Below are positions 51,922 through 60,471 of a stretch of 64,000 nt of DNA, piece by piece (within the stretch, counting starts at the first letter, position 1; every line of letters begins with the position of its first letter). The position numbers and the translations under genes are program-made. Source of the DNA: Hyphomicrobium sp. (GTDB lineage Bacteria > Pseudomonadota > Alphaproteobacteria > Rhizobiales > Hyphomicrobiaceae); assembly GCA_030148425.1 (NCBI GenBank), contig JASBTM010000017.1, forward strand, positions 124,001 through 188,000, given 5' to 3'. The notes under the pieces were generated by a model that searched no databases, was not told the origin of the DNA, and saw only the letters and a program-made list of their open reading frames with translations.

Positions 51922-52866
51922 CGTTTAGCGGATCGATCTCTAGTTGAAATTGCATGCGTCAGGTGCCCCTGCGAAAGCACGCAGAGGGGCAACGGACGAC
52001 ACAGCACCCGATAAAAACCGGCACGTTGCGAACGTTGGTTCTGAGTTTGGCGATCCAGCTCAGTGCGGAAGCCTGGAAGCCCCAAAGCTAGTTGGGCATC
52101 CGTCTATTTTCACATCACCACGCTCAAAACACTGGCAAACGTTTATTCAGACGAAATTCAAGTGAGAAGAAAATAGAACTTCTAAGCTTAGAACTGAGCG
52201 TGAGAAGCGCGCCTTGTCGGTTACCCCACAGATGCCAAAAAATGTCCGGCCCCACATTGTTAGGAGTAGCCCAGCAGCGCTCCGTATCCTTCCGTTTGGG
52301 GTTCACCCGATCAAGTAGATCGTCACTGTCCGTTTCCAATCTGCTTGCGGACATCCTCATCTCAACACGTATCAATCTGAGAATCGCGTGTGTAGAGTCA
52401 GCTATCTCTGCTTTTCTACGTTGTTGTTCGTTGGCTTTTATACAAAAGTAGCCACTCACCTTGAGACGCTTCGGTGCGGGTTGCGCTCATTCCGCCGCGA
52501 ACTGGATATGGAGATCGCACGCTCCCGTCCCGCTACTAATCCAAAGCGGCCGCTTTCAGTTTGGCTAACGCATCGCCGTGAATTTGTCGTGTAGGTCACA
52601 TGTGGATCCCCGCGAATCACTTAGGCCACCGATAAGAAATTGAAAAAACCAGCCGGACTGATTTTCCGCGTTCACTCGTCGCCTACGGCCGACCGCGTCT
52701 CTGCGGGACGTTTCTCAAGAGGCCGATCAGTGTGGTATTAGACCTCTTGGTAGCGTCGGCATTTTTTGGGTGAGGGTGTCGAACTGCGGTGACGCGGCGT
52801 AATTCAAATAACTCCAAGGTGAGACCCAATGAGAATGTCGCACCGTCCTCGGGCCAAAAACCAACC
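51922..52866. other. Long intergenic region between divergent operons
   Basis: The region separates the organosulfur operon (minus) from the nucleotidyltransferase gene (plus). The part near 51922 presumably carries the operon promoter. Only short open frames occur, none with recognisable motifs, and I see no RNA gene. Decayed sequence is likely. Confidence 0.45.
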
Positions 52867-54000
52867 ATGACGAAATCGGTTCTTTCCACGCCTAGGCGCG
52901 AAACCCAATCGCTGCCCAATAATCAAATACCTCTTGAGCAGGGTGCCGAAGACCTTCGCGATCGCTATCGCTCGTCGCGCATCGCGTACCTATTGAATTT
53001 TCGAAGTCTGCTTCCAAACGAGCAAAGACGACGCATCGCCGCTTGGCTGATCTACGGCGCGGATCCCCAATCTCTACGATCCCCTCCGAGTTTTGATCTC
53101 ACGCCAATGCAGGTGAATATTCTTTTTTCTGAAGCTGAAGCGCACGGTGTCCTGCCTTCGGTTTTCTCGAAGACAAGAGCGCATCTTAGTCACCCGCAAT
53201 ATGAAGACGGCCTTCGACATGCGTCGGAAAGGCTTGTCTTGCTGCGCTCACATACGATGATGCTTCGCGCGTGCTGCGATACCCTCACCCGCCGAATGCA
53301 GGGATTGCCTTTCGTGACAGTGAAGGGCAGGTCATTTGCTACGACAATCTACCCCGATCCAGCGCTTAGGCCGTACACAGACGTTGATTTTCTTGCCGCG
53401 CCGGAAGCTCTGGCTGAAATCGAAGCAGTCCTCAAATCAGAAAATTTCGTCCTGGCCGCGCCAGAGGAAGACGGGTTGCGTCAGGAATGGAAATGGCAGC
53501 ACTCATCCAACCCTGCGTTGCTCGTAGAAGTGCACACGAACATGGTCCACGCGGAAAGTCTGAGATCCGCTGCATCCCTGCCGTATCGGGCCTTGGAACG
53601 CATCGGCGCGCAAAGCCCTGCCGCGATGCTCGGAGTCGCTGTGACGCACGGCGCGCTCCATCAGTTTGAGCGGCTCCGCTATCTCGTCGATATCATCCAA
53701 GCCGCACGGATGATGAAAACGGCGGAAGATGAAAAGGCTTTCGTGGATCTCGTTGAAATCTCGGGGATGAAACTTGGAGCGGTGACAGGACTGAAACTCG
53801 CGTACAAACTCTTTGGCGAGCCTCGATGCATGGAACTGGTTCACGCCGTCGGCAAAACCCGATACGCGCTGCTCGCGCACATCTTAATGCGCCCCTCGGT
53901 CGTTACGTCGTCCATGAACGAGGCACGAACGTATCACGCATGGAGGCGTCAGGGATTTCGCGAATTGTTGAAGAGGGATAAAGCGCTGCCGTCTTCGTAG
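52867..54000 (+). CDS. NTP_transf_5-family nucleotidyltransferase-like protein
   Basis: From ATG 52867 the protein has 377 residues; an upstream GTG at 52789 would add 26. The NTP_transf_5 core is VKGRSFATTIYPDPALRPYT followed by DVDFLAAPE (about residues 152-180), with the G-S and D-x-D metal-binding pattern. Further on are HSSNPALLVEVHTNMVHAES and VTHGALHQFERLRYLVDIIQ, typical of this group. Relatives occur with HPr-kinase-like and PqqD-like genes in lasso-peptide and polysaccharide loci, where they are thought to transfer a nucleotide or act as a kinase partner. It lies directly before the PqqD-like gene on the same strand. Confidence 0.85.
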   Translation: MTKSVLSTPRRETQSLPNNQIPLEQGAEDLRDRYRSSRIAYLLNFRSLLPNEQRRRIAAWLIYGADPQSLRSPPSFDLTPMQVNILFSEAEAHGVLPSVFSKTRAHLSHPQYEDGLRHASERLVLLRSHTMMLRACCDTLTRRMQGLPFVTVKGRSFATTIYPDPALRPYTDVDFLAAPEALAEIEAVLKSENFVLAAPEEDGLRQEWKWQHSSNPALLVEVHTNMVHAESLRSAASLPYRALERIGAQSPAAMLGVAVTHGALHQFERLRYLVDIIQAARMMKTAEDEKAFVDLVEISGMKLGAVTGLKLAYKLFGEPRCMELVHAVGKTRYALLAHILMRPSVVTSSMNEARTYHAWRRQGFRELLKRDKALPSS

Positions 54001-54071
54001 CCTTGACCGCCTCGCGCACCTTCAATACGAGTGGAAGCAGGCGGAAACAAGAATTGGCGGGCAGTGAATAC

Positions 54072-54356
54072 ATGGGTCCGAACTCAGTCCTTAAACAGGC
54101 GAACGGATTTTTTGCCGAGGACATGGAAGGTGAGACGCTTCTCTATCGTCTGGGGGCGCACAAGGCTATTCACCTCAATCAAAGCGCCGCAGTCATTTGG
54201 ACGCTTTGCGACGGAAACCGTACGGTCCAAAATATCGTCGATCTTCTTTTGAAAGAATATCCAGGATCTGAGCCCGATATCTCCAGCGACGTTCTTCGCG
54301 CCGTCGATGCCCTGGTAAAGGAAGGTGCGTTGCTTGAAGACGAGAGCGGGGCCTAG
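54072..54356 (+). CDS. PqqD-family peptide-carrier protein
   Basis: From ATG 54072 the protein has 94 residues; a TTG at 54003, two bases after the nucleotidyltransferase stop, would add 23. The PqqD fold is visible: EDMEGETLLYRLGAHKAIHL, NQSAAVIWTLCDGNRTVQNI and DVLRAVDALVKEGALLED. PqqD-like domains bind leader peptides of modified peptides and hand them to enzymes, and they also occur with HPr-kinase-like proteins. Its stop overlaps the stop of the convergent fusion gene by four bases. This supports one functional unit with the fusion protein and the Tat-signal peptides. Confidence 0.85.
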   Translation: MGPNSVLKQANGFFAEDMEGETLLYRLGAHKAIHLNQSAAVIWTLCDGNRTVQNIVDLLLKEYPGSEPDISSDVLRAVDALVKEGALLEDESGA

Positions 54357-56956
54357 CGAGATAGCGGCCTCTCTTCAATCTCCTGCTTCATGTGGCTCAG
54401 AATTTTGTCCGCGACGCTTGCTCCTAGTAATGTACGGAAATGCTCTTCCATTTCCTGCGTATCAAGTCCGAGTTCTTGAAAGCCGATCAAGTAATTTCGG
54501 ATTCGATCGTCCCAAGTATTTGCATACGGTATTCCAAGCGGCCGATTGAAACGATGCAGCCATCGCAAGAAAGGGAGACAAAGAGTTCTTCCTCCCCGCT
54601 GCCGAAACTTTTCATGGATGTATCCCTCTTCACCGCCAAATCCCTTGAACCGCGGATTAAATCCCGGCCAAGCCTTCCGGCGGCAGGCAAATATGCCAAG
54701 GCCCTGCATAGGTATCTCAAACGGCTCACCTTCCGGATCCAGTCCGCGCTCGTCGGCCTCCCAGACACCGTACATTCCCGAACGCCATTCCGGCCGGAAA
54801 TGCGTGGCGATCTTCGTCAGATCATCGTGGACCAGCGGTCCCTGCAGGAGGTCGTTGGAGTCGGGATTTGCTTCGAGATATGCTAGAAGCTTTTTCAGCG
54901 CTCCGGGGACAAGAAAAACATGACTGTCCATGCAAAGCACATGATCTCCGACGGCTTCATCGAATAAGATCTGCCGTATGCGCGTGCCACTTTGCTCGCC
55001 GTATGGAACGTAACGATAGTTCGGAATTGAGTTTTCAAGATCTTTGAGCGCTGCCGCACAAGGACCATCTGGATGGTTGTCCACGACGAGGAGTTCGATT
55101 TCGTCGAGTAGGTCACCGTGGTAAAGTCTCAAAGCCTGCAGCGAAAAATATGCACCGTCGTAGTCATCATAGGTCGCCATTCCGACAGTAAGTTTCTTTT
55201 CCGCCGCTTCTTGCCGGGGCGTCGCGATGGGAACCGGATACGTTTTGACTTTCGGAGCTTCGACCGCGATTTGCGGCTTGTGCAATATTCCACCTAAGAA
55301 CTGGCGCATCGCGCGAGCGTCGAGATCACTTTCGAGCATGAGGCGCGTCAACACATCGATGACGCCATCGAGGTCAGCGAAGTCACCATACTGGACCTTG
55401 AGCGCAACGGTCCGACGCGCAAGCCCAGCCACGGCTTTGAAGCCGCCATCCGGAAAATTCCGGGCATTGAGATTGCACTCGATGAGTCTCAGGCCAGCTT
55501 CAGCGGGCGACAACGCTTCGATGTAAAGTGATGATCCCGCTACATAGGAGGGGAAGATGATCAACCGGCATTTTCCGGAGGAATTCGGCGCCACTTTTTC
55601 GAACGCAACATTCGCTGCGAAATGCGATCCGGCTTGAACCGCTCGAGCTCCTTGGAACGCTTGGAACGCCAAAACTTTATCCGCAGCGCCGGGCTTCAGC
55701 ACCAATGAACGCGGAAAGCCGACGACCTTGTCCTGTTCGTTCACCAACGCGACAACTTCATCCGAAAGGTACTGGAAACCCCTCTCTAACAGCCATGCGG
55801 TCAAGGACGATTTGCCCACGCCGCTGCCTCCAGCGATTAGAATCGCATTTCCATTCGCATCGGAAACCGCGCCGGCATGAAGCGCCACCGCCGACTGCAT
55901 GCGGTAAACGAGATCATGGACAACGGCCTCCATGAGAAACGTTGCAAAATCGCCTTCAGTGAGATTTTGAGCATTTAGTTCGCTACTGCGCACCGAAAAG
56001 AGGCTGTCTCCATTTTCGCCTACGAGAATGGGGAAACGGCCCACCGAACTATCATCTATGCAATGTCGAAAGAGTGCATCGATCTCGGTCTTGAGGCCGA
56101 GCGGAAAATGCAAGTCCACAGTCTGATCGTGGAAGCGCAAAGAGATACGGCGAACGCCTTCATCAGATACTACATTGCGAACTGCATGCGGTCTGGAGTT
56201 GTCTTGGACCACCTGATCGGGCTGTGCCTCCATGATGCGCGGTACAGCCAGCCGACGTTTGATCTGATGGTCGGTACATGCGGGAGTGCCGAGAGCCGAA
56301 TGCCCCCGAAGATAAAACTTTTGCCAACCGGCGGCGAGAGTGTCCGGATCTCTCTGCGACAGACCATCGAGAAAATTGTTCCTCGACTTTTCCCATGCTC
56401 GAAATTCCCGATGAAGTTCGAGATTGTCCTCGAGCGAACAAATGTCGACGCCCACTTCCTCAACGAGTGGAAGGGGCAGCGGCGTGATGAAACAGAAGGG
56501 CTCGCCTTTCTCGAAGGTAATTCTTCCCGGACGGGTGAAAGCCCAGTTCATTGTGAAGCGGAAAGGCAGCCAATCCGACTCTACGACGGCGTCAAGCGGC
56601 TGAATTCCATCTTTCGGCGAATTGGGTGAGCCCCTGACCCAAAGGTGCCAACCTGTTTCCGTCGTGAAGAGATAGCTCGGATAAAAAGTCAGAATGCCGT
56701 GGCCGAAGTGCGATTTGACGAGTTCAGGAAGGTCGGGATAGCCGTCCAACGACTCTACACGCAGATCGGCCGGAGCAGCGCCCCCGTTCCAGGAAACGGA
56801 AAAATGGCTCGGACTTAATATTTCCCAACCGGTAGCATTGGCCATTGCGAGCGGGATGCAACGATAGGCCTGGACTTCGTCCATCCAACGCCGCTGCCAG
56901 CTCGCTGGCACGATTTCCTGCGTATCCCGCCTAAACCGATAACACGTGAGCTTCAT
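54353..56956 (-). CDS. DUF6065–HPr-kinase-like–GT2 glycosyltransferase fusion
   Basis: This 867-residue protein joins three parts. Residues 1-225 resemble DUF6065: MKLTCYRFRRDTQEIVPASW and LTFYPSYLFTTETGWHLWVR. Residues about 250-570 are HPr-kinase-like, with Walker A GGSGVGKS at 376-383 (Lys382), a preceding ALHAGAVSDANG and a following LERGFQYLSDEVVAL that correspond to HprK motifs. Residues 587-867 are a GT2 glycosyltransferase: KKLTVGMATYDDYDGAYFSL, a DxD-like CMDSHVFL near 678 and FKGFGGEEGYIHEKFRQRGG. All three look intact. The kinase-like part may phosphorylate a peptide or sugar intermediate and the GT2 part may glycosylate it. The gene converges with pqqD-like and follows the Tat-peptide genes on the same strand. 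Confidence 0.88.
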   Translation of the reverse strand: MKLTCYRFRRDTQEIVPASWQRRWMDEVQAYRCIPLAMANATGWEILSPSHFSVSWNGGAAPADLRVESLDGYPDLPELVKSHFGHGILTFYPSYLFTTETGWHLWVRGSPNSPKDGIQPLDAVVESDWLPFRFTMNWAFTRPGRITFEKGEPFCFITPLPLPLVEEVGVDICSLEDNLELHREFRAWEKSRNNFLDGLSQRDPDTLAAGWQKFYLRGHSALGTPACTDHQIKRRLAVPRIMEAQPDQVVQDNSRPHAVRNVVSDEGVRRISLRFHDQTVDLHFPLGLKTEIDALFRHCIDDSSVGRFPILVGENGDSLFSVRSSELNAQNLTEGDFATFLMEAVVHDLVYRMQSAVALHAGAVSDANGNAILIAGGSGVGKSSLTAWLLERGFQYLSDEVVALVNEQDKVVGFPRSLVLKPGAADKVLAFQAFQGARAVQAGSHFAANVAFEKVAPNSSGKCRLIIFPSYVAGSSLYIEALSPAEAGLRLIECNLNARNFPDGGFKAVAGLARRTVALKVQYGDFADLDGVIDVLTRLMLESDLDARAMRQFLGGILHKPQIAVEAPKVKTYPVPIATPRQEAAEKKLTVGMATYDDYDGAYFSLQALRLYHGDLLDEIELLVVDNHPDGPCAAALKDLENSIPNYRYVPYGEQSGTRIRQILFDEAVGDHVLCMDSHVFLVPGALKKLLAYLEANPDSNDLLQGPLVHDDLTKIATHFRPEWRSGMYGVWEADERGLDPEGEPFEIPMQGLGIFACRRKAWPGFNPRFKGFGGEEGYIHEKFRQRGGRTLCLPFLRWLHRFNRPLGIPYANTWDDRIRNYLIGFQELGLDTQEMEEHFRTLLGASVADKILSHMKQEIEERPLSR

Positions 56957-57500
56957 AACGCAATTCGCAACAGAGACGCTAAACTTCTATACTATCGAGC
57001 TGCGAAGACACTTATCCTCGCAGATCTCGACTACGGAGCTAAATCGAAATTCGCATCACGGAGGCGCAACCGTTGTTGTCGTCGTGGTCGTAGTAGTTGT
57101 TGTTGTCGTCGGCGTCGCAGTGGTCGTCGGCGCAACTGTTGTTGTCCCTGGAGCACCTGTTGTTGTGCTCGTCGTTGTGGCTGGCGCAGAGGACGCTGCG
57201 TGGGCGGGGACAACGACAGAGTTGACCACCGGCTTCATCCAACGCGACGGAAGTGCGATGGCCGTGACCACGCCACCGATGGCGACTATTTTGAGAAATT
57301 TTCGGCGGTCTGGGCCGCCATCCTGCGACTGCATCTTCTCTCCCCCAGCGCGATTCAATTCCGCGCTCCCTTTATATCCTAAAGAGCCCAAAGATGGTGT
57401 TACGCGAGAATCACACAGATCTGCTCGAGCAGTTTTCTCAACGTTTAAATCGAAATCAATAGGCAAGTCTCAGGGCTATCGCGTTCTCATCTCGCGGGAT
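56789..57500. repeat. Segmental duplication, copy A
   Basis: This unit contains the 5' end of the fusion gene and the first Tat-signal peptide gene with its upstream region. Bases around 56821-56899 match 57558-57636, and 57172-57360 match 57735-57920 almost throughout. The fusion gene is complete in this copy. Edges are approximate. Confidence 0.8.
57056..57334 (-). CDS. Small Tat-signal protein with Thr-rich mucin-like tail (copy A)
   Basis: From ATG 57334, right after the ribosome-binding site GGGGAGAGAAG, the product has 92 residues. It begins with a twin-arginine signal (DRRKFLKIVAIGGVVTAIAL) and a hydrophobic core, then WMKPVVNSVVVPAHA with probable signal-peptidase cleavage after AHA (residue 46). 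The predicted mature part of 46 residues is nearly only Thr, Ala and Pro, with a run of 13 Thr near the end, like a mucin O-glycosylation region. It has no cysteine. It lies just upstream of the fusion gene on the same strand. It is probably the substrate of the neighbouring modifying enzymes, which is inference. Confidence 0.72.
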   Translation of the reverse strand: MQSQDGGPDRRKFLKIVAIGGVVTAIALPSRWMKPVVNSVVVPAHAASSAPATTTSTTTGAPGTTTVAPTTTATPTTTTTTTTTTTTTVAPP

Positions 57501-57520
57501 CGTCAACTGGAAGCAGCGCC

Positions 57521-57650
57521 CCGTTCTAGGAAACAGAAAAACGGCGGGAAGTTAGTATTTCCCAACCAGTAGCATTGGCCATCGCGAGCGGCAGGCAACG
57601 ATAGGCATGGACTTCATCCATCCAACGTCGCTGCCGACCGATAACACATG
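57521..57650 (-). pseudogene. Truncated 5' fragment of the fusion gene (from duplication)
   Basis: Bases 57558-57636 match 56821-56899, the N-terminal coding part of the 867-residue fusion protein, with only scattered substitutions. The rest of that gene is missing here. The fragment lies between the two Tat-peptide genes and has no function of its own. Confidence 0.8.
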
Positions 57651-57660
57651 CAGACTCCGA

Positions 57661-57894
57661 CTAGACCGGATTTGTCGTACTTGTCGAAATTGTTGGTGTT
57701 GTTGTGGACGTCGTTGTTGAGGTTGTACTCGTCGTTGTCGCTGGCGCAGAGGATGCTGCGTGGGCGGGGACGACGACAGAGTTGACTACTGGCTTCATCC
57801 AACGCGATGGAAGTGCGATGGCTGTGACCACGCCACCGATGGCAACTATTTTGAGAAATTTTCGGCGGTCTGGGCCGCCGTCCTGCGACTGCAT
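57661..57894 (-). CDS. Small Tat-signal protein with Thr/Ser-rich tail (copy B)
   Basis: From ATG 57894, after GGGGGAGAGAAG, the product has 77 residues. The first 46 residues, including RRKFLK and the cleavage motif PAHA, are the same as in copy A. The mature part of 31 residues is made of TTSTTSTTTSTTTPT-like repeats ending STTNPV. The shared signal and diverged tail show a recent duplication in which the low-complexity tail changed by repeat slippage. It may be expressed from its own copy of the upstream region. Confidence 0.72.
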   Translation of the reverse strand: MQSQDGGPDRRKFLKIVAIGGVVTAIALPSRWMKPVVNSVVVPAHAASSAPATTTSTTSTTTSTTTPTISTSTTNPV

Positions 57895-58139
57895 CTTCTC
57901 TCCCCCAGCGCGATTCACTTCCGTCTCTTTTTACATATCCTAAAAAACCCAGGACAATGTTGCGCAAGAATCACACAGCTCTAATTGACCAATCTTTTCA
58001 ACGTTCAGATTAGAGATCAATGGGGAGAGCCTGGGAGCTATGGTGTTCTTTCCTGCGCGATCGCTGATTGGAAGTACACTGCGGTTTACTCCTTAGCCGT
58101 TGATCTGTCGAAGGAACGACCTTCGATCATCAAGCCCTG

Positions 58140-58555: not shown

Positions 58556-58978
58556 TCACAGCTTGCCGAGGAAATCCCGCGGCCTGAGCGCAACGTCCGC
58601 AAGGGTGTAGCGATCCAGCGCGGCGAGGAACCCCGTACGCGCCTCATTGAGCACACCACGCAATTTACAGCGCGGGGTGATCGTACAATGGTTCTCAGCG
58701 CCGAAACATTCGACCAATGCAAAGTCGGGCTCCGTTGCGCGAACAACGTCTCCGAGGCGGATTTTTTCCGGCGGCATGGCGAGGATGACGCCGCCTGAAC
58801 GGCCACGTACGGATGTGAGAAAGCCGCTGCTGGTGAGTTGGTTCACCACCTTCATCAAGTGGGCGCGCGAAATGCCATAGACGCCCGCGGTCTCTTCGAT
58901 GGTGATTCTCCGGTCTCCTTGGCTCGCCGCATAAAGAAGAACGCGCAGACTATAGTCGGTAAAGTTGGTCAACCGCAT
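58556..58978 (-). CDS. nsrR: Rrf2-family NO-sensing repressor NsrR
   Basis: From ATG 58978 the protein has 140 residues. The Rrf2 winged helix is complete (MRLTNFTDYSLRVLLYAASQ, then AGVYGISRAHLMKVVNQLTS and VRGRSGGVILAMPPEKIRLG). The three Cys of the Fe-S ligand loop are present in ECFGAENHCTITPRCKL. NsrR carries an iron-sulfur cluster that is destroyed by NO, releasing its targets. It diverges from the flavohaemoglobin gene across a clear NsrR-type palindrome, a standard arrangement. Confidence 0.9.
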   Translation of the reverse strand: MRLTNFTDYSLRVLLYAASQGDRRITIEETAGVYGISRAHLMKVVNQLTSSGFLTSVRGRSGGVILAMPPEKIRLGDVVRATEPDFALVECFGAENHCTITPRCKLRGVLNEARTGFLAALDRYTLADVALRPRDFLGKL

Positions 58979-59154
58979 TGCGATGCCTGGGTTCCGCGCG
59001 CCATTATCAATGGATTCGAAGGTATCTTTTGCCGATATGCTTCGCAACGCGAAGATGCATACCCGCTACGCGAGCGTCCTGCGGCGTCTTCTGACCGAGA
59101 GCAAATCATAGATCGATGTGGTGGCCATTTCGCCGTTTTGTTCTCCTTGACCTA

Positions 59155-59179
59155 AAAGATGCATTAAAAATATATCTTT
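59155..59179. promoter_or_regulatory. Probable NsrR-binding site
   Basis: The arms AAAGATGCATT and AATATATCTTT form an inverted repeat with two mismatches around AAA. This follows the NsrR consensus, with its AAGATG half-sites and A/T-rich centre. It lies 60 bases upstream of the flavohaemoglobin start. Confidence 0.75.
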
Positions 59180-59238
59180 GCATTCGTTGAACCGGGAACG
59201 GGGCAAATTTTTGCCGCGAAGCATCGAAGGGAAGCGCT

Positions 59239-60471
59239 ATGCTAAGTGAGAAAACCATCGAAATCGTGAAGGCCACGGCTCCTGTTCTTCAGGAGCATGG
59301 GAACACGTTGACCCGACATTTCTACAACCGCATGTTTTCTCACAATCCGGAAGTTCTTCCCTATTTCAATCGCGCGAACCAGGCGGCGGGCAAGCAACAG
59401 GCCGCCTTGGCGTCTGCAATTTGCGCCTATGCCGCGAACATCGACAATCTCGGCCAGCTCAAGGAAGCTGTGGAACTCATCGCGCAGAAGCATACATCGC
59501 TGCAGATAAAGCCCGAGCACTATCCGATCGTCGGCGAGAATCTTCTGGCGTCCATCCGAGAGGTGTTGGGAAGCGCCGCGACCGACGAAATCATCGCCGC
59601 GTGGGGCGAGGCCTACGGATTTTTGGCCGATATTCTCATCGGTCGCGAAGCTCAAATATATCGCGCAGCTGCATCGGTTCCGGGTGGCTGGGAAGGATTC
59701 CGACGCTTTATCGTCTCCAAGAAAGAGCAAGAAAGCAGCGTCGTTACGTCTTTCTATCTGACCCCGGAAGACAAAGGACCGCTGCCGTCCTTCAAGCCGG
59801 GCCAATACATTACCATCCGAGTCCCGACCGGCGACGGCTTGACGACTATGCGCCAATATAGCCTTTCGGCCAAACCCAACTCGGATTGGCTGCGCATCAG
59901 CGTCAAGCGCGAAGATGGCGCCGGCATCAGCGCCCCTCCAGGTTATGTCTCGAATCTTCTGCATAATTCTTTGACTGTCGGCTCGGTGCTGGATGTCGCT
60001 CCGCCGTGCGGCGAGTTCTTCCTCGACAGAGACTTAAACGACGACCGGCCGCTGGTGCTGATCGCTGGAGGCATCGGCATCACTCCGCTGATGAGCATGC
60101 TGCAAAGCGCGCTGGAAAACTCCCCTCAGCGCCAGGTCACCTTTATTCACGGGTGCCAGAACGAAGATGTGCAAGCCTTCAAATCCACGGTCGAGAACCT
60201 CAAGACACAGCATGCCAATTTGATCGCGCACTTCCGCTACCTCGATCCGCAGAAGCCTCTCAGCAGCAATGGGATTGGTGCGAGCAAAGGTTTCATAGAT
60301 ACATCGCTGCTTGAGACCATGATCGGCGATCGAGACGCGGACTACTATTACTGCGGCCCGACGCCTTTTCTCGCCAATATGCATCGTCTGCTGAATGCAA
60401 GGAATGTCCCGCACGAGCAGCAACATTTCGAGTTCTTCGGACCCAAGGAGGAACTCGCAGCATTCGCCTGA
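59239..60471 (+). CDS. hmp: Flavohaemoglobin, nitric oxide dioxygenase
   Basis: This 410-residue protein starts at ATG 59239, after AAGGGAAGCGCT. The globin domain (residues 1-140) has the proximal heme His85 (IAQKHTSLQI). The FAD-binding domain has RQYSLS and PGYVSNLLHN, and the NAD domain has GGIGITPLMSML and YYYCGPTPFL. It oxidises NO to nitrate with O2 and NADPH. It is regulated by the adjacent NsrR through the palindrome upstream. All catalytic elements appear intact. Confidence 0.95.
   Translation: MLSEKTIEIVKATAPVLQEHGNTLTRHFYNRMFSHNPEVLPYFNRANQAAGKQQAALASAICAYAANIDNLGQLKEAVELIAQKHTSLQIKPEHYPIVGENLLASIREVLGSAATDEIIAAWGEAYGFLADILIGREAQIYRAAASVPGGWEGFRRFIVSKKEQESSVVTSFYLTPEDKGPLPSFKPGQYITIRVPTGDGLTTMRQYSLSAKPNSDWLRISVKREDGAGISAPPGYVSNLLHNSLTVGSVLDVAPPCGEFFLDRDLNDDRPLVLIAGGIGITPLMSMLQSALENSPQRQVTFIHGCQNEDVQAFKSTVENLKTQHANLIAHFRYLDPQKPLSSNGIGASKGFIDTSLLETMIGDRDADYYYCGPTPFLANMHRLLNARNVPHEQQHFEFFGPKEELAAFA

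Follow-up and report, generated by a model that had tools for sequence, protein, structure and literature searches.

Lasso peptides are tailored by the kinases PadeK and PsmK and by the nucleotidyltransferase PsmN (PMC9266682), and lasso clusters contain PqqD-type RiPP recognition elements (RREs; RiPP, ribosomally synthesized and post-translationally modified peptide) (PMC12710340). Here we describe a locus in a 64,000-nucleotide stretch of Hyphomicrobium sp. DNA (contig JASBTM010000017.1, positions 124,001 to 188,000; hereafter the window), where genes for an NTP_transf_5-like nucleotidyltransferase and a PqqD-like protein lie beside two small genes for Thr-rich proteins with a twin-arginine translocation (Tat) signal and beside a gene that fuses a DUF6065 domain, an HprK-like kinase and a glycosyltransferase (GT) domain resembling polypeptide N-acetylgalactosaminyltransferases (ppGalNAc-Ts). 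We consider it reasonably probable that the locus encodes a cassette for the leader-guided modification of mucin-like peptides exported by Tat. Comparative sequence evidence gives good support to the part of this reading in which the small Tat proteins are putative substrates of the adjoining enzymes.

The cassette shares with lasso tailoring the proposed action of a kinase and a nucleotidyltransferase on a ribosomal precursor. A first-pass annotation of the window had likened it both to lasso tailoring and to the HPr-rel-A combination, which we judge apt, and had stated that no radical-SAM or cyclase gene is present; neither family occurs among the eight window proteins scanned (the five parts of the cassette and three neighbors), nor do these include a lasso cyclase or a leader protease. 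Unlike in lasso tailoring, the leader is a Tat signal, and a ppGalNAc-T-like domain and Thr tails are added. The name HPr-rel-A, used in that annotation, denotes an HprK_rel_A kinase (TIGR04352) with PqqD-like and NTP_transf_5 partners. The same three families occur in the window, with both partners as neighbors, and Tat genes adjoin such genes in GT-lacking genomes, but the kinase falls below its family cut-off and is fused to DUF6065 and the GT. Serine-rich repeat adhesins resemble our proposal in that Ser/Thr-rich repeats are glycosylated in the cytosol and then exported by a dedicated route (accessory Sec), but they are large adhesins handled by other enzymes and another export route, and their systems are not known to include an RRE or a kinase. 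Precursors in the DUF2063/DUF2282 systems are likewise RRE-associated and bear an export signal, which is Sec rather than Tat, and the passages of the source that treat DUF2063/DUF2282 report no specific RRE motif (PMC12710340).

The glycosyltransferase domain resembles ppGalNAc-transferases

The first-pass annotation described a kinase fused to a DUF6065-like domain and a GT2 glycosyltransferase, and the 867-residue fusion protein bears this out, with both PF19541 and PF00535 over cut-off. Pfam assigns the GT only to Glycos_transf_2 (PF00535, E 2.5e-8, residues 593-727); a more exact description is ppGalNAc-transferase-like. When compared with PDB sequences, a profile made from 51 GT domains (the window and 50 other loci) matched ppGalNAc-T10 at E 5.4e-4. 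The AlphaFold2 model of the domain (mean predicted local distance difference test score, pLDDT, 94.5) retrieved ppGalNAc-Ts as all of the best 50 of 461 fold matches (E 1e-3 or better), the best at E 1.5e-14, with query-normalized TM-scores (TMq) of 0.58-0.70. The domain carries D677-S-H679 (DxH), G-G-E776-E777 (GGEE) and H801 (HRF), of which the DxH, the GGE Glu and the third His align with ppGalNAc-T10, and D107, H109, E206, E207 and H231 of the domain (D677, H679, E776, E777 and H801 of the fusion) are invariant in all 51 rows of GT alignment A1, from which the near-duplicate L033 was left out.

Three observations pull the other way. The best profile match was a different enzyme, the GlcNAc-transferase 6h1j (E 1.6e-4, N-terminal half only); Foldseek superpositions on ppGalNAc-Ts have a root-mean-square deviation of 3.7-10.6 Å at 14-21% identity; and neither the window protein nor the 10 relatives scanned have the ricin lectin domain that GT27 enzymes carry at the C terminus. 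The GT domain thus shares with GT27 ppGalNAc-Ts the predicted GT-A fold, the DxH, third His and GGE motifs and a mucin-like Thr-rich partner, but differs in being bacterial, in the lectin domain and in its fusion to DUF6065 and a kinase or, in relatives, to PqqD, GT25 or GalE. Because fold, profile and motifs match while no lectin domain was found, we call the domain ppGalNAc-T-like, in looks and probably in action, and do not assign it to GT27.

Among relatives, the GT is fused to PqqD in L024, L027, L029 and L054 (L-numbers denote fetched loci), as well as in L041, where PqqD falls below the Pfam cut-off, and in L032, where it was found by BLAST only. Fusions to GT25 occur in L008, L027, L029, L041, L044 and L054, some relatives carry fused second GT2 or group 1 glycosyltransferase domains, and GalE is fused to the GT in L030 (over cut-off) and encoded next to it in L020. 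These fused and neighboring domains favor galactose (Gal) or N-acetylgalactosamine (GalNAc) as the putative donor. The GalE of the Hyphomicrobium genome itself is uninformative because GalE matches in all 14 control genomes, 8 of them over cut-off. No paper on a bacterial ppGalNAc-T or on such a cassette was found in open-licence full texts, where longer result lists were covered at the top only, nor did these texts yield a paper for DUF6065, HPr-rel-A, HprK-rel-A, HprK-related kinase, TIGR04352 or PF14907.

The Tat leaders carry an RRE-type motif and a near-invariant Ser/Thr

Both small proteins carry a twin-arginine signal by TIGR01409, with Pfam TAT_signal below its own cut-off, and both have Thr-rich tails, as the first-pass annotation had noted when it called them tiny Tat-signal proteins with mucin-like tails. 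Tat peptide 1 combines its twin Arg with W32-x-K-P35, a PAHA motif and Ser49 at position +3 after it. All 28 rows of the profile alignment and 46 of 46 unique leaders from fetched regions have the W and the P of W-x-x-P; a few of these leaders also supplied alignment rows. Of 77 Tat matches, 3 lay outside the A-[HQ]-A pattern and the remainder reduced to 67 unique leaders; position +3 is Ser/Thr in 66 of these, compared with 4%, 66% and 4% at +1, +2 and +4, and because the leader profile includes the W-x-x-P and +3 columns some bias in these conservation counts is possible. W/Y/LxxP/L/I is the recognition sequence of several RRE groups, PqqD included (PMC12710340), and since W-x-x-P matches it we infer that the PqqD-like protein reads the Tat leader. 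The two features expected of an RRE system, a PqqD-type protein near the precursor and a leader with an RRE-type motif, are both present in the sequence. The same source mentions RREs fused to PF00535 glycosyltransferases without detail (PMC12710340). Together with the ppGalNAc-T-like character of the GT, the W-x-x-P motif and the +3 residue are new relative to the first-pass annotation. By eye, the Tat proteins of L029, L031, L041 and L054 also have a further hydrophobic motif, similar to AHA, AYA or SYA, about 20-40 residues after the first.

The first 58 codons of the two Tat genes differ at 11 synonymous and no nonsynonymous positions, and the Thr codons of the tails are mixed (ACA, ACG, ACT and ACC in copy 1; ACA, ACG and ACC in copy 2), from which we conclude that both open reading frames (ORFs) are genes rather than chance frames. 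The same two facts rule out a tandem-repeat artefact as their origin. They also bear on the view that the Thr tails are functionless simple-repeat expansions behind an ordinary Tat signal peptide: the tails do vary in length and sequence between the two copies, as such expansions might, but W-x-x-P and the Ser/Thr at +3 are conserved across phyla, and Thr-rich stretches recur on unrelated scaffolds beside the same enzyme, so that with the codon evidence we regard this view as very improbable. Since a broken DUF6065 start with an in-frame stop lies between the Tat genes, a unit made of a Tat gene and the 5' end of the fusion gene was probably duplicated in tandem, and a duplicated unit of this composition ties the two genes together.

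Thr-rich partners cluster around the GT across lineages

The GT loci were found with six short peptide patterns, which returned 73 stretches, 51 of them confirmed, and so do not form a complete set. Under a filter of our own, a locus had a partner when its fetched stretch held a Tat-family gene or when an export-like Thr-rich ORF lay no more than 2.5 kb away. By this filter 19 of the 51 loci have a Tat-family gene with the same leader (L031 and L033 being near-duplicates), 28 have an export-like Thr-rich ORF and 34 have at least one of the two. Export-like Thr-rich ORFs number 33 in 219 kb near the GT and 3 in 355 kb beyond 2.5 kb, one of the distant three being a Tat paralogue in L004; likely chance or antisense matches among the near ones are the second in L007, the first in L038, and those in L016, L022, L045, L048, L049, L051 and L052. 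In a random-anchor control with a strict filter of at least 7 Thr per 20 residues, 19 of 49 loci had a match, where 1000 draws averaged 5.0 and never exceeded 10, and at 9 or more Thr per 20 residues 9 of 49 had one, where the draws averaged 2.5 and never exceeded 7; the near-duplicates L033 and L040 were dropped from this control and from the count of Tat families in GT genomes given below. Under the strict filter, density is 0.142 per kb within 1.5 kb of the GT and 0.003 per kb past 3 kb. The looser partner count was added because the strict filter lost real Thr genes, such as those in L008, L011 and L039.

The scaffolds that carry the Thr-rich stretches are unrelated to one another: short W-x-x-P Tat peptides, longer Tat proteins, PqqD-Tat-Thr fusions and Pro/Thr-repeat ORFs, with outer-membrane-like Thr-rich proteins (by eye) in L020 and L053. 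The fusions, encoded next to the GT, each combine a PqqD-like part, an internal twin-arginine signal and a Thr-rich stretch (L037:1787-2719, L038:6840-7724 and L040:2153-3121), though Pfam scored the PqqD part of L038 under its cut-off and found none in L037. Pro/Thr-repeat ORFs lie directly upstream of DUF6065 in all four Streptomyces loci with DUF6065 beside the GT (L046:7114-7815, L047:1494-2183, L050:1021-2181 and L052:7002-7883); no export signal is obvious in them by eye, and no HprK-like match was found in these loci. No plasmid-borne relatives were found at E 1e-20.

Several counts weigh against a constant link between the GT and such partners. Our filter finds neither kind of partner in 17 of the 51 loci and, within the fetched stretches, no Tat-family gene in 32; of the 34 partner loci, 3 rest on doubtful frames (L048, L049 and L051). 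Of the 17, L046, L047 and L050 do hold a Pro/Thr-repeat ORF, L015 has a Thr stretch within the fusion itself, and L010, L012, L024, L032 and L044 have Tat-family genes elsewhere in the genome, which leaves L019, L021, L025, L028, L034, L035, L036 and L043 without a partner. These partnerless loci, together with the GT25, second GT2 and group 1 domains fused in some relatives, would suit a GT drawn from a surface polysaccharide pathway with the Tat peptides as incidental neighbors. The much higher density of Thr-rich export-like ORFs close to the GT than farther off, the PqqD fusions, which indicate a peptide substrate, and the greater frequency of the Tat family in GT genomes (with the sampling caveats given below) speak against this explanation, and we think it improbable.

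The Tat leader protein and the GT are probably separable modules

The Tat family was found in 22 of 48 GT-bearing genomes and in 1 of 385 genomes of a class sample, namely the Hyphomicrobium genome itself, a comparison that is unmatched for taxonomy and that overstates the enrichment because genes from GT loci went into the Tat profile, to which 17 of those 22 genomes supplied rows. In a phylum sample of 398 genomes, only the Hyphomicrobium genome had the GT. In the Desulfofustis family (93 genomes), Tat genes occur in 20 genomes and the GT in 4, with both in 3, Tat only in 17, GT only in 1 and neither in 72; the GT-positive genomes thus carry Tat genes in 3 of 4 cases and the GT-negative ones in 17 of 89 (Fisher p 0.03). 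An exclusive Tat-GT pairing is ruled out by the 17 Tat-only genomes and the one GT-only genome. These same counts (17 of 20 Tat-positive genomes without the GT, 1 of 4 GT-positive genomes without the Tat family) are points against the reading of the locus as one cassette, as are the many Tat paralogues without a Thr tail; the 13 Tat-rich genomes hold up to 14 Tat genes and only 1 or 2 GT genes each.

We therefore turn to what accompanies the Tat genes where the GT is lacking. Among 17 Tat regions from 16 of the 17 GT-lacking Desulfofustis-family genomes (two regions from G858, with G859 left out, as was L171, which has the GT), 11 contain PqqD, HprK-like or NTP_transf_5 genes and 7 contain all three, as recognized with profiles built in the present analysis. 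Because cassette and Tat genes occur together in GT-lacking genomes, the wider unit looks to be a Tat leader protein with PqqD, HprK-like and NTP_transf_5 proteins, to which a GT with Thr tails is an added module. This linkage, like the many lineages in which Tat-family or Thr-rich exported proteins accompany the GT, supports the claim of the first-pass annotation that the Tat proteins are candidate substrates. That annotation had counted homologues of the fusion protein regularly found without the small Tat proteins against its proposal, and this is partly the case, given the 32 of 51 loci that lack a Tat-family gene in the fetched stretch and the 17 of 20 Tat-positive Desulfofustis-family genomes without the GT; we read these counts as a sign of two separable modules and not of an absent link. 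Some members of the Tat-leader family have long Gly-rich mature parts and no Thr tail (L117:6994-7911, L120:7487-8374 and L136:7129-8112).

The existence of the cassette with Tat genes and without the GT would also fit a scheme in which the conserved Ser/Thr is the target of both kinase and NTP_transf_5, the GT only lengthens the sugar there and the Thr tail is an unmodified spacer. In keeping with this, the Ser/Thr at +3 is near-invariant while the Thr tails are not, and PsmN is reported to add hexose to phosphoserine, the review leaving PsmN's own role in the transfer open (PMC9266682). We nevertheless consider this scheme unlikely, as Thr-rich stretches go with the GT on unrelated scaffolds, including the Streptomyces Pro/Thr-repeat loci without an HprK-like match, and ppGalNAc-Ts use peptide Thr/Ser as acceptors (PMC4202792, PMC11074326).

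Kinases matching TIGR04352 at E 1e-15 occur in 9 of 230 class genomes, 6 of them over cut-off. In 5 of the 8 such regions other than that of the window, a small twin-arginine protein lies beside the cassette (by eye), with a poor match to the W-x-x-P profile. These small proteins, of another leader type, lie at L184:2334-2879, L185:794-1021, L187:7262-7828, L188:7343-7993 and L189:5367-5756 (by eye), and Tat-exported substrates may be a general theme of HprK_rel_A cassettes.

Gene layout and the other enzyme domains

The cassette spans 52789-57894 of the window, its left end lying slightly beyond that of the earlier 52867-58075 interval. Its genes form two converging groups, NTP_transf_5 and PqqD-like on the plus strand and, on the minus strand, the two Tat peptide genes followed by the fusion gene (Table 1). 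Relatives L004-L007 have the gene order of the window without DUF6065, namely Tat genes, kinase-GT, and convergent PqqD and NTP_transf_5 genes; NTP_transf_5 adjoins PqqD and converges on the kinase-GT gene in them too. The NTP_transf_5, PqqD-like and HPr-kinase-like parts named in the first-pass annotation are thus all present, PF14907 and PF05402 over cut-off and the HprK-like part below curated cut-offs.

Table 1. Features of the cassette, with positions in the window
Feature	Position	Strand	Evidence
NTP_transf_5-like nucleotidyltransferase, 403 residues	52789-54000	+	PF14907, E 9.5e-25, over cut-off
PqqD-like protein, 117 residues, predicted RRE binding the Tat leader	54003-54356	+	PF05402, E 1.8e-14, over cut-off
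DUF6065/HprK-like/GT fusion, 867 residues	54353-56956	-	Profile matches
ppGalNAc-transferase-like GT-A domain, fusion residues 571-867	54356-55246	-	Profile and predicted fold matches
HprK-like kinase domain, fusion residues ~341-530	55367-55936	-	TIGR04352 HprK_rel_A, E 9.2e-22, below cut-off
DUF6065 domain, fusion residues 3-236	56249-56950	-	PF19541, E 1.5e-86, over cut-off
Tat peptide 1, 92 residues, 27 Thr in total	57056-57334	-	TIGR01409, 18.8 bits (cut-off 16.7)
DUF6065 5'-end remnant, interrupted by a single in-frame TAG and flanked by the Tat genes	57517-57636 (about)	-	PF19541, E 2.7e-12 (contig positions 181517-181636)
Tat peptide 2, 77 residues, same leader, other Thr-rich tail, 16 Thr in total	57661-57894	-	TIGR01409, 20.2 bits (cut-off 16.7)

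The HprK-like region is divergent; its score far under the NCBIfam cut-off (TIGR04352, 77.4 bits against 200) counts against the proposed cassette, and Pfam Hpr_kinase_C also stays below its own (29.3 against 33.3). It carries a Walker A K382, D399 and, by eye, the candidate His H360, and its GK and Asp are kept at 85% or more in 27 aligned sequences. The KG...D.D motif of NTP_transf_5 is likewise kept at 85% or more in 11 aligned sequences, and the PqqD-like protein matches the lasso_PqqD_Bac model at E 3.6e-8, below cut-off.

Among the loci examined, only the window has DUF6065, HprK-like and GT domains in one protein; in the Streptomyces loci DUF6065 and GT are adjacent or overlapping ORFs. 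DUF6065 is often a stand-alone protein, over cut-off in 27 of 240 class genomes, and with no GT in the ~1.5-kb flanks of 29 fetched loci it was rejected as a marker of the system. Because its AlphaFold2 model (pLDDT 88.6) resembles dUTPases, which make up all 50 matches listed, albeit weakly (best E 5.1e-4, TMq ~0.4), there is a hint that DUF6065 may bind a nucleotide or nucleotide-sugar.

Beyond the cassette, at 58556-60471, lies a gene for an Rrf2-family regulator, closest to NsrR but below the model cut-off, divergent from a gene that reads by eye as a flavohaemoglobin.

A proposed mechanism for the cassette

The gene content, predicted fold, motifs, conserved linkage, duplication remnant and codon-level constraint of the locus lead us to a scheme in which the binding, the order of steps, all chemistry, the donor sugar, the cleavage, the location and the purpose of the cassette are proposals. 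The Tat signal would double as a leader: in the cytoplasm, the PqqD-like RRE protein would bind its W-x-[KR]-P and present the precursor to the enzymes. The HprK-like kinase and NTP_transf_5 would then modify the near-invariant Ser/Thr at +3 after AHA (Ser49 in the window), probably by phosphorylation and subsequent sugar or nucleotidyl transfer, as do PsmK and PsmN on a lasso precursor. The ppGalNAc-transferase-like domain would O-glycosylate the Thr residues of the tail, probably with Gal or GalNAc from the UDP (uridine diphosphate) form, and Tat would export the product, cleavage after AHA freeing a short glycopeptide.

Taken further, and here we are tentative, HprK-like, PqqD and NTP_transf_5 proteins could form a general system that marks Tat-exported proteins at a Ser/Thr past AHA, with some lineages having gained a bacterial ppGalNAc-transferase. 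This enzyme would build genuine mucin-type O-glycans on the Thr tails while the proteins are still in the cytoplasm, prior to Tat export, and a fused GT25 might lengthen them. If true, prokaryotes would have a mucin system related to that of animals. The cassette scheme above makes sharp predictions, concerning one Ser, one W-x-x-P, one DxH, the Thr tail and a mass shift. It names a definite candidate for the substrate of a kinase/PqqD/nucleotidyltransferase cassette hitherto unexplained and points to a bacterial enzyme that resembles the animal starter of mucin glycosylation, its likely peptide partner encoded beside it. It would also link the leader-guided modification of peptides with export through Tat.

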